Of a stretch of 64,000 nucleotides of DNA, positions 26,354-37,710 are shown in pieces. This stretch comes from Sulfuricurvum sp. Its GTDB lineage: Bacteria; Campylobacterota; Campylobacteria; Campylobacterales; Sulfurimonadaceae. The notes beneath the pieces are model-generated. The model saw nothing but the letters and a program-made list of their open reading frames with translations, was not told where the DNA came from and searched no databases. A program made the position numbers and the translations under genes. The DNA is taken from positions 62,001 through 126,000 of the forward strand of contig DYMK01000002.1 of the NCBI GenBank assembly GCA_020721585.1, written 5' to 3'. How positions within the stretch are numbered: position 1 is the stretch's first letter; every line of letters starts with the position of its first letter.

Positions 26354-26418
26354 CCATAACCCTTAAGAAACAATCCGATACCATTTAAAGGATAAAAATA
26401 CTGCGAGTGGGTAAAAAA

Positions 26419-28902
26419 ATGGGCAACACGATTACTATTGAGGGAGACAACAAAGATGCTATTGTCATAGGGGATAATAATAAGGTAATCACCCAAAAGG
26501 CTCCCCACACCATCCCCAAAAATTTAGCCTCCACCCTCACCCCCACCCTTGCGCATTTCGTGGGGAGGGAATCGGAGCTAGAAGAGATTGAACAACGGCT
26601 TAAGGAGGATTCCATGCTTTTGTTGCTCAATGGTATCGGGGGGATCGGGAAAAGTACCCTCGCGTCGTACTATTTTCACCACCACAAAGAGCGTTTTGAC
26701 CATTATGGCTACGTGCAGGTCGATGAGGCGATTGAGCTGAATTTTAAAAAAGCGTTTGCGACATCGTTGGATTTGAAAAACGAGACCCTTGAGGAGTCTT
26801 TTGAGGAGGCGATCGGTAAGCTCTCCAATCTCAGCGGGAAAAAACTGCTGGTCATTGATGATCTCAAAGTCGCCTCCGACTCCCCCTCACTGCGTGCGAT
26901 TTTGGGATTGGCACACTGTGGGTTTACCCTCTTGTTTACCTCACGCACGACGTTTCCCAATCTACCCCATCGCTTCGTAGAGCATCTCCCCCTTCCCAAC
27001 GCCAAAGAGCTTTTTGGCAAACACTATCCCAAAGCCGTGGATGAGGAAAAACTCGAACAGCTCTTGCGCATCATCGACTCCCATACCCTCCTTATCGAAC
27101 TGATCGCCAAGATTATGGTCGAAGAGGGATACACCTTGGATCACATCCTCACGCAACTCTCCCAAGGGGCGATGGTCACGATCGAATATACCGACGATGA
27201 GGGGCGTTTGGCGATGATCAATGATCGTCTCAATCGCCTCTTTAATCTCCAAAATCTCTCAGAGACGTACCTTCTCTTGCTCAAAAAGTTCGTTATCCTC
27301 CCCTCTGCTGATCTTCCCTTTGGGGAACTTTCCGAGATATTGGGGGAGACGGCACAGGGGAGACTGACGTTTTTGGTCAAACGGGGGTGGCTCATCGGGG
27401 GAGAAGAGAGCTATAAACTTCATCCCATTCTCCATGCCTATCTCATTGCCAATACTCCCCCCACGAGGGAGGAGATTTCCCCCCAGTTTGACTTTTTTAT
27501 GAACGCTATTCGTAACAGTACTCCTTCCGATGAGCTGAGTAAAAAGAATCATGATTTGCCTTATTTTGAGGCGATGGCGCGGTTTTGGGTAAAAAATGGG
27601 TCGATGGAGAAGAAAATAGGCTATTTTTTAGCTCAATTGGGATTTCTTTATCATTCCATCGGAGCGTACGGTCACGCCCTAGAGTATCTCGAACGCTCGC
27701 TTGCCATCTGCCAAGCCATCGGGGATAAAAGCGGTGAGGGGACGACGCTCAATAATATTGGTCAAATCTACAAAGCACGAGGCGATCTGACCACCGCCTT
27801 AACGTACCTGCAACAATCGCTTACTATCCGCCAAGCCATCGGGGATAAAAAGGGTGAGGGGATGACGCTCAATAATATTGCTGCAATCTACCACGCACGG
27901 GGTGATCTGACCACCGCCTTAAGGTACCTGCAACAATCCCTTGCCATCTACCAAGCCATCGGGAATCAACGCGGTGAGGGATCGACGCTCAATAATATTG
28001 GTCAAATCTACCAAGCACGAGGCGATCTGACCACCGCCTTAACGTACCTGCAACAATCCCTTGCCATCTACCACGCCATCGGGGATAAAAGTGGTGAGGG
28101 ATCGACGCTTAATAATATCTCTCAAATCTACGACGCACGAGGCGATCTGACCACCGCCTTAACGTACCTGCAACAATCCCTTGCCATCTACCACGCCATC
28201 GGGGATAAAAGTGGTGAGGGATCGACGCTTAATAATATCTCTCAAATCTACGACGCACGAGGCGATCTGACCACCGCCTTAACGTACCTGCAACAATCCC
28301 TTGCCATCTACCACGCCATCGGGGATAAAAGTGGTGAGGGATCGACGCTTAATAATATCTCTCAAATCTACGACGCACGAGGCGATCTGACCACCGCCTT
28401 AACGTACCTGCAACAATCCCTTGCCATCTACCACGCCATCGGGGATAAAAGTGGTGAGGGGACGACGCTCAATAATATTGCTGCAATCTACCACGCACGA
28501 GGCGATCTGACCACCGCCTTAACCTACCTGCAACACTCCCTTGCTATTCTCCAAGCCATCGGGAATCAACGCGGTGAGGGATCGTCGCTCAATAATATTG
28601 CTGCAATCTACCAAGCACGAGGCGATCTGACCACCGCCTTAACCTACCTGCAACACTCCCTTGCTATCCGCCAAGCCATCGGAGATAAATCGGGGATGTG
28701 TGCCACCCTTTTTAATATTGGGCATATCCATTGGAAAAATGACGACCACGACCAAGCAATCCAAAACTGGGTAGAGGCGTATCGTATCGCCAAAAAAATA
28801 GAGTATGCAGAATTACTTAATGCTCTTGAAGGATTGGCGAAAGATTTAGGGCATGAAGAGGGGTTGGGATATTGGGAGCGTCTTAGTCGTGAGAGACCCT
28901 GA
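26419..28902 (+). CDS. STAND-type NTPase with a C-terminal tandem TPR array
   Basis: An 827-residue protein. The N-terminus (NTITIEGDNKDAIVIGDNNKV) is a short beta-rich lead often seen in front of STAND ATPases. The NTPase domain (~45-330) has Walker A NGIGGIGKSTLA near 70, Walker B KLLVIDDL near 143 and sensor-like TSRTTF. Residues ~415-775 are nine TPR units of exactly 40 residues with consensus LTTALTYLQQSLAIYQAIGD. At DNA level these are 120-base repeats, some identical. No dedicated effector domain is visible. STAND proteins sense invaders or stress; this one may work with the divergent nuclease. The ATG at 26419 is preferred over GTG 26407. The stop codon lies in a palindromic repeat. 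Confidence 0.85.
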   Translation: MGNTITIEGDNKDAIVIGDNNKVITQKAPHTIPKNLASTLTPTLAHFVGRESELEEIEQRLKEDSMLLLLNGIGGIGKSTLASYYFHHHKERFDHYGYVQVDEAIELNFKKAFATSLDLKNETLEESFEEAIGKLSNLSGKKLLVIDDLKVASDSPSLRAILGLAHCGFTLLFTSRTTFPNLPHRFVEHLPLPNAKELFGKHYPKAVDEEKLEQLLRIIDSHTLLIELIAKIMVEEGYTLDHILTQLSQGAMVTIEYTDDEGRLAMINDRLNRLFNLQNLSETYLLLLKKFVILPSADLPFGELSEILGETAQGRLTFLVKRGWLIGGEESYKLHPILHAYLIANTPPTREEISPQFDFFMNAIRNSTPSDELSKKNHDLPYFEAMARFWVKNGSMEKKIGYFLAQLGFLYHSIGAYGHALEYLERSLAICQAIGDKSGEGTTLNNIGQIYKARGDLTTALTYLQQSLTIRQAIGDKKGEGMTLNNIAAIYHARGDLTTALRYLQQSLAIYQAIGNQRGEGSTLNNIGQIYQARGDLTTALTYLQQSLAIYHAIGDKSGEGSTLNNISQIYDARGDLTTALTYLQQSLAIYHAIGDKSGEGSTLNNISQIYDARGDLTTALTYLQQSLAIYHAIGDKSGEGSTLNNISQIYDARGDLTTALTYLQQSLAIYHAIGDKSGEGTTLNNIAAIYHARGDLTTALTYLQHSLAILQAIGNQRGEGSSLNNIAAIYQARGDLTTALTYLQHSLAIRQAIGDKSGMCATLFNIGHIHWKNDDHDQAIQNWVEAYRIAKKIEYAELLNALEGLAKDLGHEEGLGYWERLSRERP
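27661..28740 (+). repeat. tandem 120-base repeats coding for TPR units
   Basis: Nine 120-base units in frame, the first (27661-27780) divergent. From 28021 to 28460 the sequence is identical to itself at a shift of 120 bases, so the units starting 28081, 28201 and 28321 are perfect copies. The other units differ mainly at a few positions per unit (for example GGTCAAATC versus GCTGCAATC). Such sameness indicates recent amplification or gene conversion, and copy number is likely to vary between strains. Confidence 0.95.
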
Positions 28903-31332: not shown

Positions 31333-32723
31333 TGGCACATTACTCCCAAAAATACGACCTCTATTTAGGCTCCACCCAAAGTTTTTGTCACCTCTGTGGC
31401 ACCCTTACTAAACTCATCGATACCCATATCGTGACCAAAGACAATGCGGTATTTTTGCGCAAATTTTGCCCCAAATGCGGGGAATCGATGGTCAAAATCT
31501 CCAGTGACTATGAGTATTTTAAAACCTGTGAGAGCTATCTTAAAGCCCCCGATTTACCCGAAATGGCGAACACTCAGGTGTTACGCGGGTGTCCTTTTGA
31601 CTGTGGGGTGTGTCCTCAGCACCAAAATCATCCCTGTCTTGCCCTCTTTAACATCACCGATGAGTGCAATATGAAGTGCAATATCTGCTATTTCTCCTCC
31701 TATCCCGGAGCGGGGAATCATCGAAGCATGGAAGCGATTCAGCAGATGCTCTCTACACTCCTCAAAGTCGAAAGCACGCCCGATCTCATCCAAGTGACGG
31801 GGGGGGAACCAACCACCCATCCCCAAATTATGGAGATTTTGCGCTATCTCAAAAAATCGCCCGTCCGTCATTTGATGCTCAATACCAACGGTATCCGTAT
31901 TGCCCAAGAAGAGGCGTTTGTCAAAGAGCTGAAATCGCTTGGGGCAGGGTTTGAAGTCTATTTGCAGTTTGATTCGATGCAAGAAGAAGCACTTCGCGAT
32001 ATTCGCGATAGAGATATGCGTTCTATCCGTCTGAAAGCATTGGAGTTGCTTGAAAAGTACAGCATTTCCACCACACTGGTGTGCGTTATCAAAAAAGGGG
32101 TCAATGACCATGAGATTCCCGACCTTATCGATTTTTCTCGACGCTACACCTGTGTCCGTGGGGTGGTTTTTCAGCCCGTCCAAGAGGCAGGACGAATTGA
32201 GGCGGTGGAGGGTTTTCGCATTACCCTCTCGGAAATACGCTCCCGTATTATCGATGATCCACGCAATCCGTTCACCGGCGAAGACATGATCCCCCTCCCC
32301 TGCGATCCGCACAAAATCGGAGTGGGCTATGCGGCAAAAACGATGCGCGATGGTTACGCCGATTTGTTCCCCGTCACGGGAAAAATCCCCAAAGAGATGA
32401 TCACCACCCATACGGGGACGGTGGCGTTTGAGCAAGATCGTGCGTTTGTCAAAACCATCATCGATACAGTGAGTTTGGATACGGCGATGGGGGAAGCGAT
32501 TCTCAAAGATAAAATTAAACAAAAACTTTTTTGTTGCTGGCCCGATTTTTTAGCTCCTGCGGATATGGGGTATGAAAACGTCTATCGGATTGTTATTATG
32601 GAATTTTCAGACCTTTATAACTTTGATTCGACTAACATTAAGCGTGAGTGTAATTTTATGATCGAACCGGATCGGGCGATTCCGTTTTCGACCTACAATA
32701 TGGGGATTAAATTTTCACACTAA
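31332..32723 (+). CDS. radical SAM protein of the MJ0619/tetraether-synthase (Tes)-like group
   Basis: The 463-residue enzyme has an N-terminal Cys-rich zone (CHLCGTL near 15, CPKCGES near 45), RGCPFDCGVCPQHQNHPC near 90, the radical SAM motif CNMKCNIC near 112, GGEPTTHP (SAM), LNTNGIRIA, YLQFDS and a C-terminal CNFMIEPDRAIPFSTYN. This order matches COG1964 radical SAM proteins such as archaeal MJ0619 and Tes, which carry extra FeS clusters; members join lipid tails or act on pterins. The GGGGGG before the ATG favours 31332. Being in an operon with an Lgt-like enzyme and two lipoproteins, a lipid or lipoprotein modification is inferred. Confidence 0.8.
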   Translation: MAHYSQKYDLYLGSTQSFCHLCGTLTKLIDTHIVTKDNAVFLRKFCPKCGESMVKISSDYEYFKTCESYLKAPDLPEMANTQVLRGCPFDCGVCPQHQNHPCLALFNITDECNMKCNICYFSSYPGAGNHRSMEAIQQMLSTLLKVESTPDLIQVTGGEPTTHPQIMEILRYLKKSPVRHLMLNTNGIRIAQEEAFVKELKSLGAGFEVYLQFDSMQEEALRDIRDRDMRSIRLKALELLEKYSISTTLVCVIKKGVNDHEIPDLIDFSRRYTCVRGVVFQPVQEAGRIEAVEGFRITLSEIRSRIIDDPRNPFTGEDMIPLPCDPHKIGVGYAAKTMRDGYADLFPVTGKIPKEMITTHTGTVAFEQDRAFVKTIIDTVSLDTAMGEAILKDKIKQKLFCCWPDFLAPADMGYENVYRIVIMEFSDLYNFDSTNIKRECNFMIEPDRAIPFSTYNMGIKFSH

Positions 32724-33765: not shown

Positions 33766-35969
33766 CGCTCTCCCCTCTTTTGCGATCTACCTCTCTTCGT
33801 CACGATTTTTGGGGTGGGATGGCAGCGATGTTGGTCGCCCTTCCCGCCGCGATTGCGTTTGGAGTGAGTGTGTATGCCCCCTTGGGGGGAGATTATGCCA
33901 CCTATGGAGCCATTGCGGGGATTTTAGGGGTGAGCATTTTGGGGATTATTGCCCCGTTATTGGGGGGAACCTCTCGCCTTATCTCTGCTCCTAGCGCACC
34001 TGCGGCAGCGGTTCTATCAGCATTTGCCTTGGAATATACGACTGCTGGGATAACCGCTTCGAGTGTTTTTGTCATGTTAATGCTCATTGGGGTCTTCGCG
34101 GGAGTTTTTCAACTTCTCTTTGGGCGCATCGGATTGGGACAACTGATTAAATATATCCCTTTTCCGGTGGTGAGTGGGTATCTTAGCGGGGTGGGATTGG
34201 TCATCATCACCTCCCAATTGCCCAATTTTGTTGGTTCTCCCCATGGAGAGCATTTTTGGCAATCACTTCAGCGCCCTTTTATGTGGCAGTGGCAAAGTCT
34301 CCTCATCGGGGGGATGACCCTCTTTACCATGATGATGGGAGATAAATGGTTTCGCTCGTTTCCTACGGTCATCATCGCTTTTATCGTGGGGATTATGACG
34401 TATGCCTTTTTGGGATGGTGTGATCCTACGGTATTTCTACCGCAAAGCACCCTTATTGTCGGATCTATCAGTGAACAGGGGAGTTTTCCCATTCTCCAAA
34501 GCATCACCGATCGGTTAGTGGGGGTCGTGGAGCTATCGCAATTAAGCTTTGAACGGATCCTTCTCCCCTCCCTCACCCTTGCCACATTGCTCTCGATTGA
34601 TACGCTAAAAACGTCTATCATTGTGGATTCGATGACCCATACGTTTAATGATCCCAACCAAGAACTCATGGCGCAAGGGGTCGCCAATACCGCCAGTGCT
34701 ATGTTGGGGGGGATGAGTGGATCGGGGACGATGGGACCTACGATGGTCAATCTCTCCAGTGGGGCAACCTCCAACCTCTCAGGTTTGTTTGAGGGGATAC
34801 TCTCCCTGATCGCTTTTTTGGTATGGGGGGCGTTTATCGGATGGATCCCCATCGCAGCATTGGCAGGAATTTTGATCGTGGTGGGGTTTCGGATGATTGA
34901 TCCTCACAGTGTCAAACTCTTACGCTCCCAAACGACTGTGTTTGATTTTTGCATCATTGTGATCGTTGCCCTGACTGCCTTAAGTGTAAGTTTGATTGCC
35001 GCTGCGGGGGTGGGATTGGTGTTAGCCATGATACTGTATCTGATGCGACAGATGGGAGAATCGATTCTTTATCGTCAATTGGATGGGAATGAGGTTCACA
35101 GCAAAATTATCCGTAATCATATCAAAGAGCGTATTCTCCATGCACAAGGGGAGTTATTATGTGTGTATGAGTTGCAAGGGAGCCTCTTTTTTGGGACGGC
35201 ACACCAATTGTACGCGATGCTTAAAAATGATCTTCCCGATAAAAAATACCTTATTTTGGATATGAAACGGGTCGAAACGGTCGATCTGACCGCTGCCCAT
35301 GTTTTGCTTCAGCTTAAAGATATACTGCATGAACGGGGGGGATATTTGTTACTCTCCCGTTTGCCCCATAAGCTCCCCAGTGGAGAAGATTTGGAACGGT
35401 ATTTTCACCACGTCGGAGTACTCAAACACCTCTCCCCTGCGATGATTTTTGATAATTTGGATGAAGCGGTGGAGTGGGTGGAGGAACGTATGTTACGTGA
35501 TACGTCCCCTCATGTCCCCTCTGCGGAGATGTTATCCCTTAATCAATTTGATCTCTTTAAGGAACGGCGCAGTGACACGTTAGAAGAGATTGAAAAACTT
35601 TTGGAGTCCCAATGGTACAAAAAAGGGGAGCGAATCTACTCCCAAGGGGAATCGAGTGGGGAGATATTTTTGATCCGTCAAGGGCGCGTCCGCCTTTTAC
35701 TCCCCTCTTCCCATGGGGAAAAAAGTATCCATTTGGGGACGTATGAAGAGGGGAACTTTTTTGGGGAATTTTCATTTTTAGAAGGAACTTCGCACTATAC
35801 CCACAGTGTTGCGGAACGGGATACCCATCTTTACCGTATCTCCCGCGAAGCGTTTGATCTTTTTGCCCAACATCACAAAAAAGCCTCGTTGCACTTTATG
35901 CAGTCCCTTGCGACCGTATTAGCCCAACGGCTTCGCCTCACCCGTTCGGAATTGGGGGATGAGGTGTAA
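33762..35969 (+). CDS. SulP-family anion transporter with STAS and cyclic-nucleotide-binding domains
   Basis: The 735-residue inner-membrane protein has about 11-12 helices (~20-420) with SulP features (LPAAIAFGVSVYAPLGG, ISAPSAPAAAVL, GGMSGSGTMGPTMVNLSSG), a STAS domain (~440-560; YLILDMKRVETVDLTAA) and a C-terminal cNMP-binding domain (~605-720; GEIFLIRQGRVRLL, EEGNFFGEFSFLEG). SulP proteins carry sulfate, bicarbonate or other anions; the substrate cannot be read from sequence. The fused cNMP domain suggests allosteric control. Co-transcribed with ppk2. Confidence 0.9.
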   Translation: MTLSPLLRSTSLRHDFWGGMAAMLVALPAAIAFGVSVYAPLGGDYATYGAIAGILGVSILGIIAPLLGGTSRLISAPSAPAAAVLSAFALEYTTAGITASSVFVMLMLIGVFAGVFQLLFGRIGLGQLIKYIPFPVVSGYLSGVGLVIITSQLPNFVGSPHGEHFWQSLQRPFMWQWQSLLIGGMTLFTMMMGDKWFRSFPTVIIAFIVGIMTYAFLGWCDPTVFLPQSTLIVGSISEQGSFPILQSITDRLVGVVELSQLSFERILLPSLTLATLLSIDTLKTSIIVDSMTHTFNDPNQELMAQGVANTASAMLGGMSGSGTMGPTMVNLSSGATSNLSGLFEGILSLIAFLVWGAFIGWIPIAALAGILIVVGFRMIDPHSVKLLRSQTTVFDFCIIVIVALTALSVSLIAAAGVGLVLAMILYLMRQMGESILYRQLDGNEVHSKIIRNHIKERILHAQGELLCVYELQGSLFFGTAHQLYAMLKNDLPDKKYLILDMKRVETVDLTAAHVLLQLKDILHERGGYLLLSRLPHKLPSGEDLERYFHHVGVLKHLSPAMIFDNLDEAVEWVEERMLRDTSPHVPSAEMLSLNQFDLFKERRSDTLEEIEKLLESQWYKKGERIYSQGESSGEIFLIRQGRVRLLLPSSHGEKSIHLGTYEEGNFFGEFSFLEGTSHYTHSVAERDTHLYRISREAFDLFAQHHKKASLHFMQSLATVLAQRLRLTRSELGDEV

Positions 35970-36052
35970 AATAACTCAAAATATCACAAATCAAACACTT
36001 TTTTTAGCTATTCACAAAAAAAGTAGTACAATGTCTCTAGCGAATTTGTAAA

Positions 36053-36090
36053 ATATTATATTATATTATATTATATTATATTATATTATA
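36053..36090 (+). repeat. ATATT pentanucleotide microsatellite
   Basis: Seven full tandem copies of ATATT (36053-36087) plus a partial one, running into the TATAAT box at 36087-36092. It lies just upstream of the roadblock-like gene. Tandem repeats of this sort slip during replication and can change promoter spacing. Confidence 0.95.
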
Positions 36091-36092
36091 AT
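36087..36092 (+). promoter_or_regulatory. -10 box abutting the ATATT microsatellite
   Basis: TATTATAATTTTCG contains TATAAT 31 bases before the ATG at 36123, with AAGGGG at 36112-36117 as ribosome site. A second box, TACAAT at 36027-36032, lies upstream of the microsatellite, so the repeat is either in the promoter spacer or in the leader. Confidence 0.5.
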
Positions 36093-36122
36093 TTTCGCAT
36101 AAACTTATTTAAGGGGTACTGT

Positions 36123-36479
36123 ATGATTTTAGATAACATTGATGGTGTGTTGGCGGAGGTTCTTTCACTTAATGGCGCGTTAGCAGCTTCAGTAATTGAT
36201 TGGAAAAGTGGTATGACGTTGGGGATGAAAAACAATAGTAATTTTGATATTGAGCTAGCTTCAGCAGGAAATTCTGAAGTGGTTAAAGCAAAAATGGCAA
36301 CCATGCGAAGCTTGGGTCTTCACGGAGCTATTGATGATATTCTTATCACGTTAACTGACCAATTACACATTATCAAAATGGTTCCATCTGCCCCTGAATT
36401 GTGTGTCTATCTTGCTTTGGATGCAAATAAAGCTAATTTAGCATTGGCACGAAATAAGCTACAAACAATTATCAAATAG
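36123..36479 (+). CDS. roadblock/LC7-like small protein
   Basis: A 118-residue cytosolic protein with an alpha-beta layout of the roadblock/LC7 fold: a first helix (NIDGVLAEVLSL), strand LAASVIDWKSGMTLG, a long helix (SEVVKAKMATMRSL), strands DDILITLTDQLHIIKMV and LCVYLALDA, last helix. Such proteins are dimeric regulators of small GTPases or signalling hubs (MglB-like). No MglA-type GTPase is adjacent. It is followed by a GAF-receiver gene. The roadblock call is by fold pattern and moderately sure. Confidence 0.65.
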   Translation: MILDNIDGVLAEVLSLNGALAASVIDWKSGMTLGMKNNSNFDIELASAGNSEVVKAKMATMRSLGLHGAIDDILITLTDQLHIIKMVPSAPELCVYLALDANKANLALARNKLQTIIK

Positions 36480-36488
36480 CTTTGTGCT

Positions 36489-36518
36489 GTCTTTTGAGCT
36501 AAAAATGGCTCAAAAGAC
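36489..36518 (+). terminator. hairpin after the roadblock-like gene
   Basis: GTCTTTTGAGC and GCTCAAAAGAC form perfect 11-base arms around an eight-base loop, starting ten bases after the stop. It may end or attenuate transcription before the response-regulator gene. Only a short T stretch follows. Confidence 0.5.
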
Positions 36519-36606: not shown

Positions 36607-37710
36607 ATGGATTTTACCCAAATTATAGCACCATTACGAGAGAACAAAAGAGATGCAGTAGCCATCCACCGTTTGATAAAAGAGGCAGTGGGAGCTAAAG
36701 TAGTTGATATTCTTTTTTACGATGAAAAAGAGAATATTTTTTTTGACAAGGTCAGTAAAATTACCATTCATGCTAGTTTTTTGGATGAATCGAGTCTCTT
36801 AGGGTATATTTTGACGGAAAAAAGAGCGTATTTTACGACAAATATACTCGGGGAGAAGCGGTATAACTTTGCTATTGATAATCCCTTTAAGATAGAGATG
36901 AAAAATCAGATTATTATCCCTATCCTTCGCAATAAAACAATTAAGGGAATTATCCGATTTTCACAGCTTCCAATAGGATTTTCTTATGAGGATTATCGAC
37001 ATCTTGCGGTAGTCTTACCCATATTTGAGGAGATTTTTTTCGATACGATTCACAGTATCTATGATACGGTTCCTCAAAAAGTTGAAAGGGTAAAAATTTT
37101 TAATATTGTTAACCAAATGCGCCGATTATTTGAAACACTTTTGGAAAATATTACTGATCCGGAAGTGGAAAAACTCATTGCTGCAGGCGAAGAGAATATT
37201 GAGACGATTCTGACGTATCTCAATCCTAACACTACCAATGTCGCTAATATTAAAAAAGAACTTCAGCAATTAAATCAACAAAAAAATCGCCTTTGTCTTA
37301 ACGTATTAATTGCTGATGATGTTCGTATTAATGTACAGATTCTTAATGCGATACTTTCAGAGGAGGAGAGTGTTGATAAAATCTTTTTTGCGTATGATGG
37401 GATAGAAGCGATTAAGGTCATTGAAAACGCGTACAATAATAATCACAGGATTGGCATTTTTTTTCTTGATCACCATATGCCAGGGTTAACGGGGACGCAG
37501 ATTGCAGAAAAACTGAAAGGGAAACACTATTTTGAGGATAAGATTAGTATTGTCTCGATTACCAATGATCCAGAAGCTATTGCTAAAAAAAATTATCTAT
37601 ATGATTATCATATCTCTAAACCTTTCAAAAAAGAGAAAGTAAAAGAGATCATTCATAAAATCAAAATAGATCATTTCAGCGTTGAAGAGGAAAAGAAAAA
37701 GGTGTGTTAA
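36607..37710 (+). CDS. GAF-like sensor protein with C-terminal receiver domain
   Basis: A 367-residue protein. Residues ~10-160 look like a GAF-type sensor; a helical linker with LNQQKNR coiled coil follows; residues ~233-350 are a receiver domain with acidic pair IADDVR, phospho-acceptor FFLDHHMPGLTG, switch SITND and conserved Lys in ISKPF. A REC at the C-terminus without an output domain suggests a relay or docking partner. It follows the roadblock-like gene, so the two may form a signalling pair. Base composition is more AT-rich than in the flanking genes. Ends in a Lys-rich tail. Confidence 0.8.
   Translation: MDFTQIIAPLRENKRDAVAIHRLIKEAVGAKVVDILFYDEKENIFFDKVSKITIHASFLDESSLLGYILTEKRAYFTTNILGEKRYNFAIDNPFKIEMKNQIIIPILRNKTIKGIIRFSQLPIGFSYEDYRHLAVVLPIFEEIFFDTIHSIYDTVPQKVERVKIFNIVNQMRRLFETLLENITDPEVEKLIAAGEENIETILTYLNPNTTNVANIKKELQQLNQQKNRLCLNVLIADDVRINVQILNAILSEEESVDKIFFAYDGIEAIKVIENAYNNNHRIGIFFLDHHMPGLTGTQIAEKLKGKHYFEDKISIVSITNDPEAIAKKNYLYDYHISKPFKKEKVKEIIHKIKIDHFSVEEEKKKVC

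Follow-up and report, generated by a model that had tools for sequence, protein, structure and literature searches.

An ATATT tandem array in the predicted promoter of a Roadblock-fold gene of Sulfuricurvum sp.

A perfect tandem array of the pentamer ATATT lies just upstream of a small Roadblock-fold gene in Sulfuricurvum sp. The array is real and rare, and it is laid out in a way that speaks against a simple on/off switch. We regard it most probably as the upstream portion of a sigma70 promoter, AT-rich and easy to melt, in which copy number would have a graded effect or none. We assign a probability of about 55% to the whole of this reading, in which the array would form the AT-rich upstream half of a promoter lacking a -35 box and changes in copy number would be graded or nearly neutral in effect. 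That the promoter is active, where transcription starts, that the array grew by slippage and that copy number is nearly neutral in effect are steps that we infer.

Length and rarity of the array

The initial annotation described 7.6 copies of ATATT within positions 36020-36123 of the window (the whole 64-kb stretch of DNA analysed), with a TATAAT box before the ATG and a TACAAT box upstream of the repeat. The span is correct, both boxes are present, and Tandem Repeats Finder returned 7.6 copies with a 100% match and no indels, the repeat proper occupying 36053-36090 (Table 1). The period-5 run measures 38 bp. Dinucleotide shuffling of the window (100 replicates) and shuffling of the AT-rich intergenic region (2000 replicates) both gave a longest run of 17 bp; the length of the array is not a product of chance. 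By pattern search it is the sole array of its class of at least 20 bp in its own genome (2.29 Mb), and at 23 bp or more the class is found in this genome only among 397 genomes of the phylum, 2 of which carry the composition-matched control TTTAA. With the threshold at 20 bp, matches occur in 2 of 121 family genomes, its own being counted, and a third family genome (G118) has a 22-bp array in another rotation. Searches of plasmids and of viral contigs gave no match to the array locus, and plasmid or viral carriage was rejected for the sets searched. A literature search by listings and passages turned up neither this array nor any ATATT repeat in a promoter of Sulfuricurvum or Sulfurimonas.

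The interior of the array contains 7 overlapping TATTAT hexamers on the + strand and 7 TATAAT hexamers on the - strand. By nearest-neighbour calculation, the array has the lowest stability of any 38-bp stretch in the window (-28.9 kcal/mol, compared with a mean of -50.1), a property that suits promoter melting.

Table 1. Features of the array locus (positions in the window)
Feature	Position	Strand	Basis or remark
T7 run, possible UP-like element (putative function)	35999-36005	+	Sequence
A7 run, possible UP-like element (putative function)	36016-36022	+	Read from sequence
TACAAT, second -10-like box, 5' of array	36027-36032	+	Sequence
Imperfect palindrome bracketing array (GCGAA 36040-36044, TTCGC 36094-36098)	36040-36098	+	Fold
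TTGTAA, -35-like	36046-36051	+	17 nt before in-array TATTAT (36069-36074), 35 nt before TATAAT
(ATATT)7.6 perfect array	36053-36090	+	-46 to -9 if start is 36099; Tandem Repeats Finder, shuffles
TATAAT, probable -10 box at 3' edge of array	36087-36092	+	Distance to ATG
Putative transcription start	36099	+	7 nt past TATAAT box
AAGGGG, Shine-Dalgarno	36111-36116	+	Sequence
118-aa Roadblock-fold protein	36123-36479	+	AlphaFold model, Foldseek
Terminator-like hairpin, 13 pairs, weak T tail	36489-36518	+	Between the two genes
367-aa protein, C-terminal receiver domain (residues 233-349)	36607-37710	+	Pfam PF00072, E 2e-12

Promoter layout

The placement of the array in a promoter, as initially proposed, is well supported by the position of the TATAAT box, whose distance to the ATG is typical of both the genome and the lineage. 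The first 4 bases of the box are also the last 4 of the array, and 30 nt lie between the box and the ATG; from the end of the array to the ATG there are 32 nt. Among 70 predicted genes with at least 80 nt of upstream DNA in 181 kb of the same contig, 21 upstream TATAAT hits were found, of which 13 lay 20-39 nt from the start. In the wider lineage the median distance was 30 nt (n=32 boxes lying 15-60 nt before a start, the ATATT array excluded). Since the TATAAT boxes of contig and lineage sit similarly, the box at the array edge is the likely -10 element and 36099 the likely start.

The hexamer 17 nt 5' of this TATAAT is TATTAT, not TTGACA, so that the locus has the pattern of Campylobacterota sigma70 promoters lacking a -35 box: a TATAAT at the usual distance and no -35. 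A TATTAT in the -35 slot is in line with the promoters of Campylobacter jejuni, which, in the passages of PMC3847290 that describe them, have no -35 box and display a periodic signal of roughly 10 nt. A TTGACA-like column is likewise not evident in the per-position base frequencies of the 32 lineage promoters. T is frequent in these promoters at -17, -28, -39 and -50 (0.5 to 0.59), a weak pattern that may hint at a periodic signal.

We propose that the TATAAT at the 3' edge would serve as the -10 element and that the array, occupying -46 to -9, would provide an easily melted stretch of overlapping -10-like hexamers, with a TATTAT each 5 bp. The array probably grew by slippage from the -10 region of a low-GC two-gene insert (see below).

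Against this reading, the TACAAT box may drive the gene through the array. The array would then lie in an 84-nt 5' leader, as an AU-rich hairpin closed by GCGAA/UUCGC, and mRNA stability or translation would depend on the length of the array. We regard this as improbable: the TACAAT at 36027 is present and a hairpin is predicted, but TATAAT lies at the commoner distance from the start and the z-score of the fold is modest (-2.3, with 5 of 200 shuffles as stable). Nor did Rfam return any known RNA family or riboswitch at its curated score, and an RNA element of either kind was rejected on that result. The palindrome would form an RNA hairpin if transcribed through from upstream, and may have arisen by chance.

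Predicted effects of unit gain and loss

In the preferred reading, the array itself supplies the spacer, the -35 slot and the proximal upstream region, and so the core promoter would be unchanged by unit gain or small loss. By computation, gain of whole units, or loss of up to two, keeps -36 to -7 identical and shifts the upstream DNA alone, by 5 bp per step. With the core unchanged, differences in copy number would be expected to act little or gradedly, not as an ON/OFF switch. Whole-unit losses reduce the spacer between TTGTAA and TATAAT from 35 to 30, 25, 20 and 15 nt, never reaching 16-18 nt, and the pair formed by TTGTAA and the in-array TATTAT stays 17 nt apart for as long as at least 4 units remain. 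A switch of the spacer type is not supported, because the core is constant under unit gain or small loss, no whole-unit change yields a spacer of 16-18 nt and the array does not lie between two fixed boxes. From this anatomy, a simple ON/OFF switch appears unlikely.

Five base pairs is about half a helical turn, and half-turn shifts may affect contacts made upstream, so that a graded or parity effect may arise via upstream elements. Because the unit is half a turn and the core would survive unit gain or small loss, odd and even copy numbers could in principle set expression by rotating upstream contacts around an intact core, although we think a strict parity switch of this kind quite doubtful. 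The more general and interesting rival is a half-turn rheostat like those of sabA and nadA, in which 5-bp units would turn the upstream A7 and T7 runs, or a regulator site, relative to the core, and expression would alternate or drift. We consider this fairly unlikely. The array does lie between A/T-run DNA (35999-36022) and the core promoter. Passages in the sources describe a shift in the axial alignment of UP-like elements by the T-tract of sabA (PMC4081817), and a quasi-periodic dependence of transcript level on TAAA number in nadA (PMC2791445). In addition, the 7.6 units in promoter position exceed the cut-off of at least 5 units usual for contingency loci with a long repeat unit, as given in a passage of PMC6321876; by that criterion the array is long enough to slip, and phase variation through this candidate array is possible. 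However, no period-5 run longer than 12 bp occurs within 250 nt upstream of any of 38 homologous genes, and no second array of period 2-6 above threshold occurs in the 181 kb sampled, which thus give no sign of a contingency-locus lifestyle; as a qualification, 32 poly-G/C tracts of 7-8 bases do occur there.

Other repeats in the genome

The 181-kb sample comprised the window and six stretches (L127-L132) of contig C98. None of its poly-G/C tracts is longer than 8 bases and no poly-A/T tract reaches 10. By the Campylobacter cut-off (7), poly-G/C tracts of 7-8 would count as potentially variable; none reaches 9. Examples inside open frames are a G8 at 31799 and a G7 at 35335. In the part of the Campylobacter repeat survey that bears on this (PMC6321876), 91% of repeats are poly-G/C and no unit is longer than two bases, and a pentamer repeat would therefore be unusual in Campylobacter too. 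The appeal to precedent in Campylobacterota that accompanied the first description of the array is correspondingly weak. Elsewhere in the window (26407-28902, + strand), an 831-aa NTPase-like protein contains eight near-identical 40-aa TPR-like units, encoded with a 120-bp DNA period (91% match, 27700-28689). This protein matches a TPR model of PADLOC and, weakly, others including Avs4, and its in-frame repeat number could vary.

Short arrays across the family

Short TATWAT arrays (three units, 16 bp) were found in 31 of 200 family genomes and the control TTWAA, also in three units, in 27 of 200. We compared 30 TATWAT loci, one per genome (G009 contributed no locus), with 27 control loci, also one per genome (L184-L186 were further hits in genomes that already had one, and were left aside). 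The gene caller applied to these loci is crude; inspection by eye showed at least one near start that it had missed (L139). An array lay no more than 60 nt upstream of a predicted start in 17/30 TATWAT and 8/27 control loci (Fisher p 0.061), and no more than 100 nt upstream in 22/30 and 12/27 (p 0.033), while 1/30 and 8/27, respectively, fell inside a gene (p 0.0095). With intragenic loci dropped, the 60-nt comparison becomes 17/29 against 8/19 (p 0.38) and the 100-nt comparison gives p 0.52, so that no promoter preference of the TATWAT arrays beyond being intergenic is shown; the 60-nt result counts against the promoter reading. A promoter device common to the lineage was not supported, the matched control being about as common and intergenic positions not significantly different. 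Some short TATWAT arrays lie just before genes that were named by eye, with no family search, as lipoprotein-like (L104), chemoreceptor-like (L045/L134) and Sel1-like exported (L107).

The similar frequency of the control would also suit a neutral product of slippage in AT-rich intergenic DNA, with no effect on expression, as would the composition of the intergenic region around the ATATT array, which is just 20% GC. We give this little credence for the ATATT array itself, as it overlaps the best-placed -10 box and its sequence therefore belongs to the likely promoter.

The Roadblock-fold gene and its neighbour

The product of the gene downstream of the array had been called roadblock-like, which is right by fold. 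An AlphaFold model of the 118-aa protein (pLDDT 94.6, 22 sequences) matched chains of MglB, Roadblock/LC7 and LAMTOR in Foldseek (E about 1e-6; TM 0.7-0.8 to MglB and Roadblock/LC7), and by this model the protein has the fold of the Roadblock/LC7 superfamily. A Pfam search gave no match even at E 5, PF03259 (Robl_LC7) included. Among 121 family genomes the gene was found in 2. Judged by record title, most of its 38 relatives in named genomes belong to Gammaproteobacteria, and one, with 63% identity, is from Sulfurovum. The family is conserved and without a Pfam entry (consensus AAAGNSEVVKAK); its records are titled Gammaproteobacteria, Acidobacteriota, Verrucomicrobiales and others, and L036 and L041 contain several copies. 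Five viral contigs (L187-L191) encode distant relatives with 40-51% identity. Conservation of the array with the gene family was ruled out by the upstream regions of the 38 homologues; that of the G034 homologue (L044) was read by eye only.

On the - strand of L044, in genome G034, the small Roadblock-fold gene (1863-1486) adjoins both another small gene (2392-1970) and a histidine-kinase-like frame (1418-3), and in Sulfurovum L005 (3001-6354) histidine-kinase-like frames lie between two copies of the Roadblock-fold gene. Read by eye, these two cases suggest a recurring link with two-component signalling.

The next gene had been labelled GAF-receiver. The receiver domain is confirmed by Pfam (PF00072) but GAF is not, because Response_reg is the only Pfam family above cut-off and the N-terminal half of the 367-aa protein has no assignment; a single-sequence model of this protein was unusable (pLDDT 42). 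Variation of its expression along with that of the Roadblock-fold gene is weakly supported, since a terminator-like hairpin and a gap of 127 nt intervene.

The GC content of the Roadblock-fold and receiver genes (0.375 and 0.337) is lower than that of their neighbours (0.488 and 0.471), and the two-gene segment sits between sulP and thrC. In 12 of the 29 relatives retrieved, sulP and thrC are convergent neighbours whose aligned ends lie 8-40 nt apart; in 16 no thrC lies within the flank of about 1.5 kb, and in 1 the contig ends. Because of the low GC and this adjacency, the gene pair is most likely a horizontal insertion.

Should the array prove variable in length, an environmental lineage of Campylobacterota would have a pentanucleotide repeat in a promoter that serves a signalling gene rather than a surface antigen, and the 5-bp steps would allow helical phasing to be tested cleanly. 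Otherwise, the array would exemplify a -10 region that has grown into a microsatellite without breaking its promoter.

Comparison with known systems

In promoter repeats of the spacer type, such as the TA repeat of hif and the poly-G of porA, the -35 and -10 boxes flank the repeat and a unit change sets their register. The ATATT array shares with these its position in a probable promoter (for the poly-G of porA, compare PMC3639595), but the computed unit changes do not alter register in this way. The T-tract of Helicobacter pylori sabA is, like the array, a promoter-proximal simple repeat in a Campylobacterota genome, and by analogy the array could alter how upstream elements align with the core promoter; A7 and T7 runs lie upstream of the array, the roles of both being putative. 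In the passages of PMC4081817 on this locus, however, sabA has a homopolymer that changes in 1-bp steps, with measured length variants and output, whereas the ATATT array has a 5-bp unit that includes the edge of the probable -10 element. The TAAA tract of Neisseria meningitidis nadA resembles it as an AT-rich repeat of 4-5 bp that lies upstream of a promoter, with a possible helical-phase effect. According to passages of PMC2791445, the nadA tract is spanned by operator OpIII (-85 to -55) and has a high-affinity NadR operator on either side, with IHF involved; the ATATT array, in contrast, extends to -9. The 118-aa gene product has the fold of MglB and Roadblock-LC7 proteins but, unlike them, no Pfam Robl_LC7 match, and its identity to the solved structures listed is 9-20%. 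Finally, the sigma70 promoters of C. jejuni, as described in part of PMC3847290, resemble the array locus in having a -10 box without a -35 box and A/T-rich periodic upstream DNA; their periodic signal is imperfect, whereas the array here is a perfect tandem repeat.
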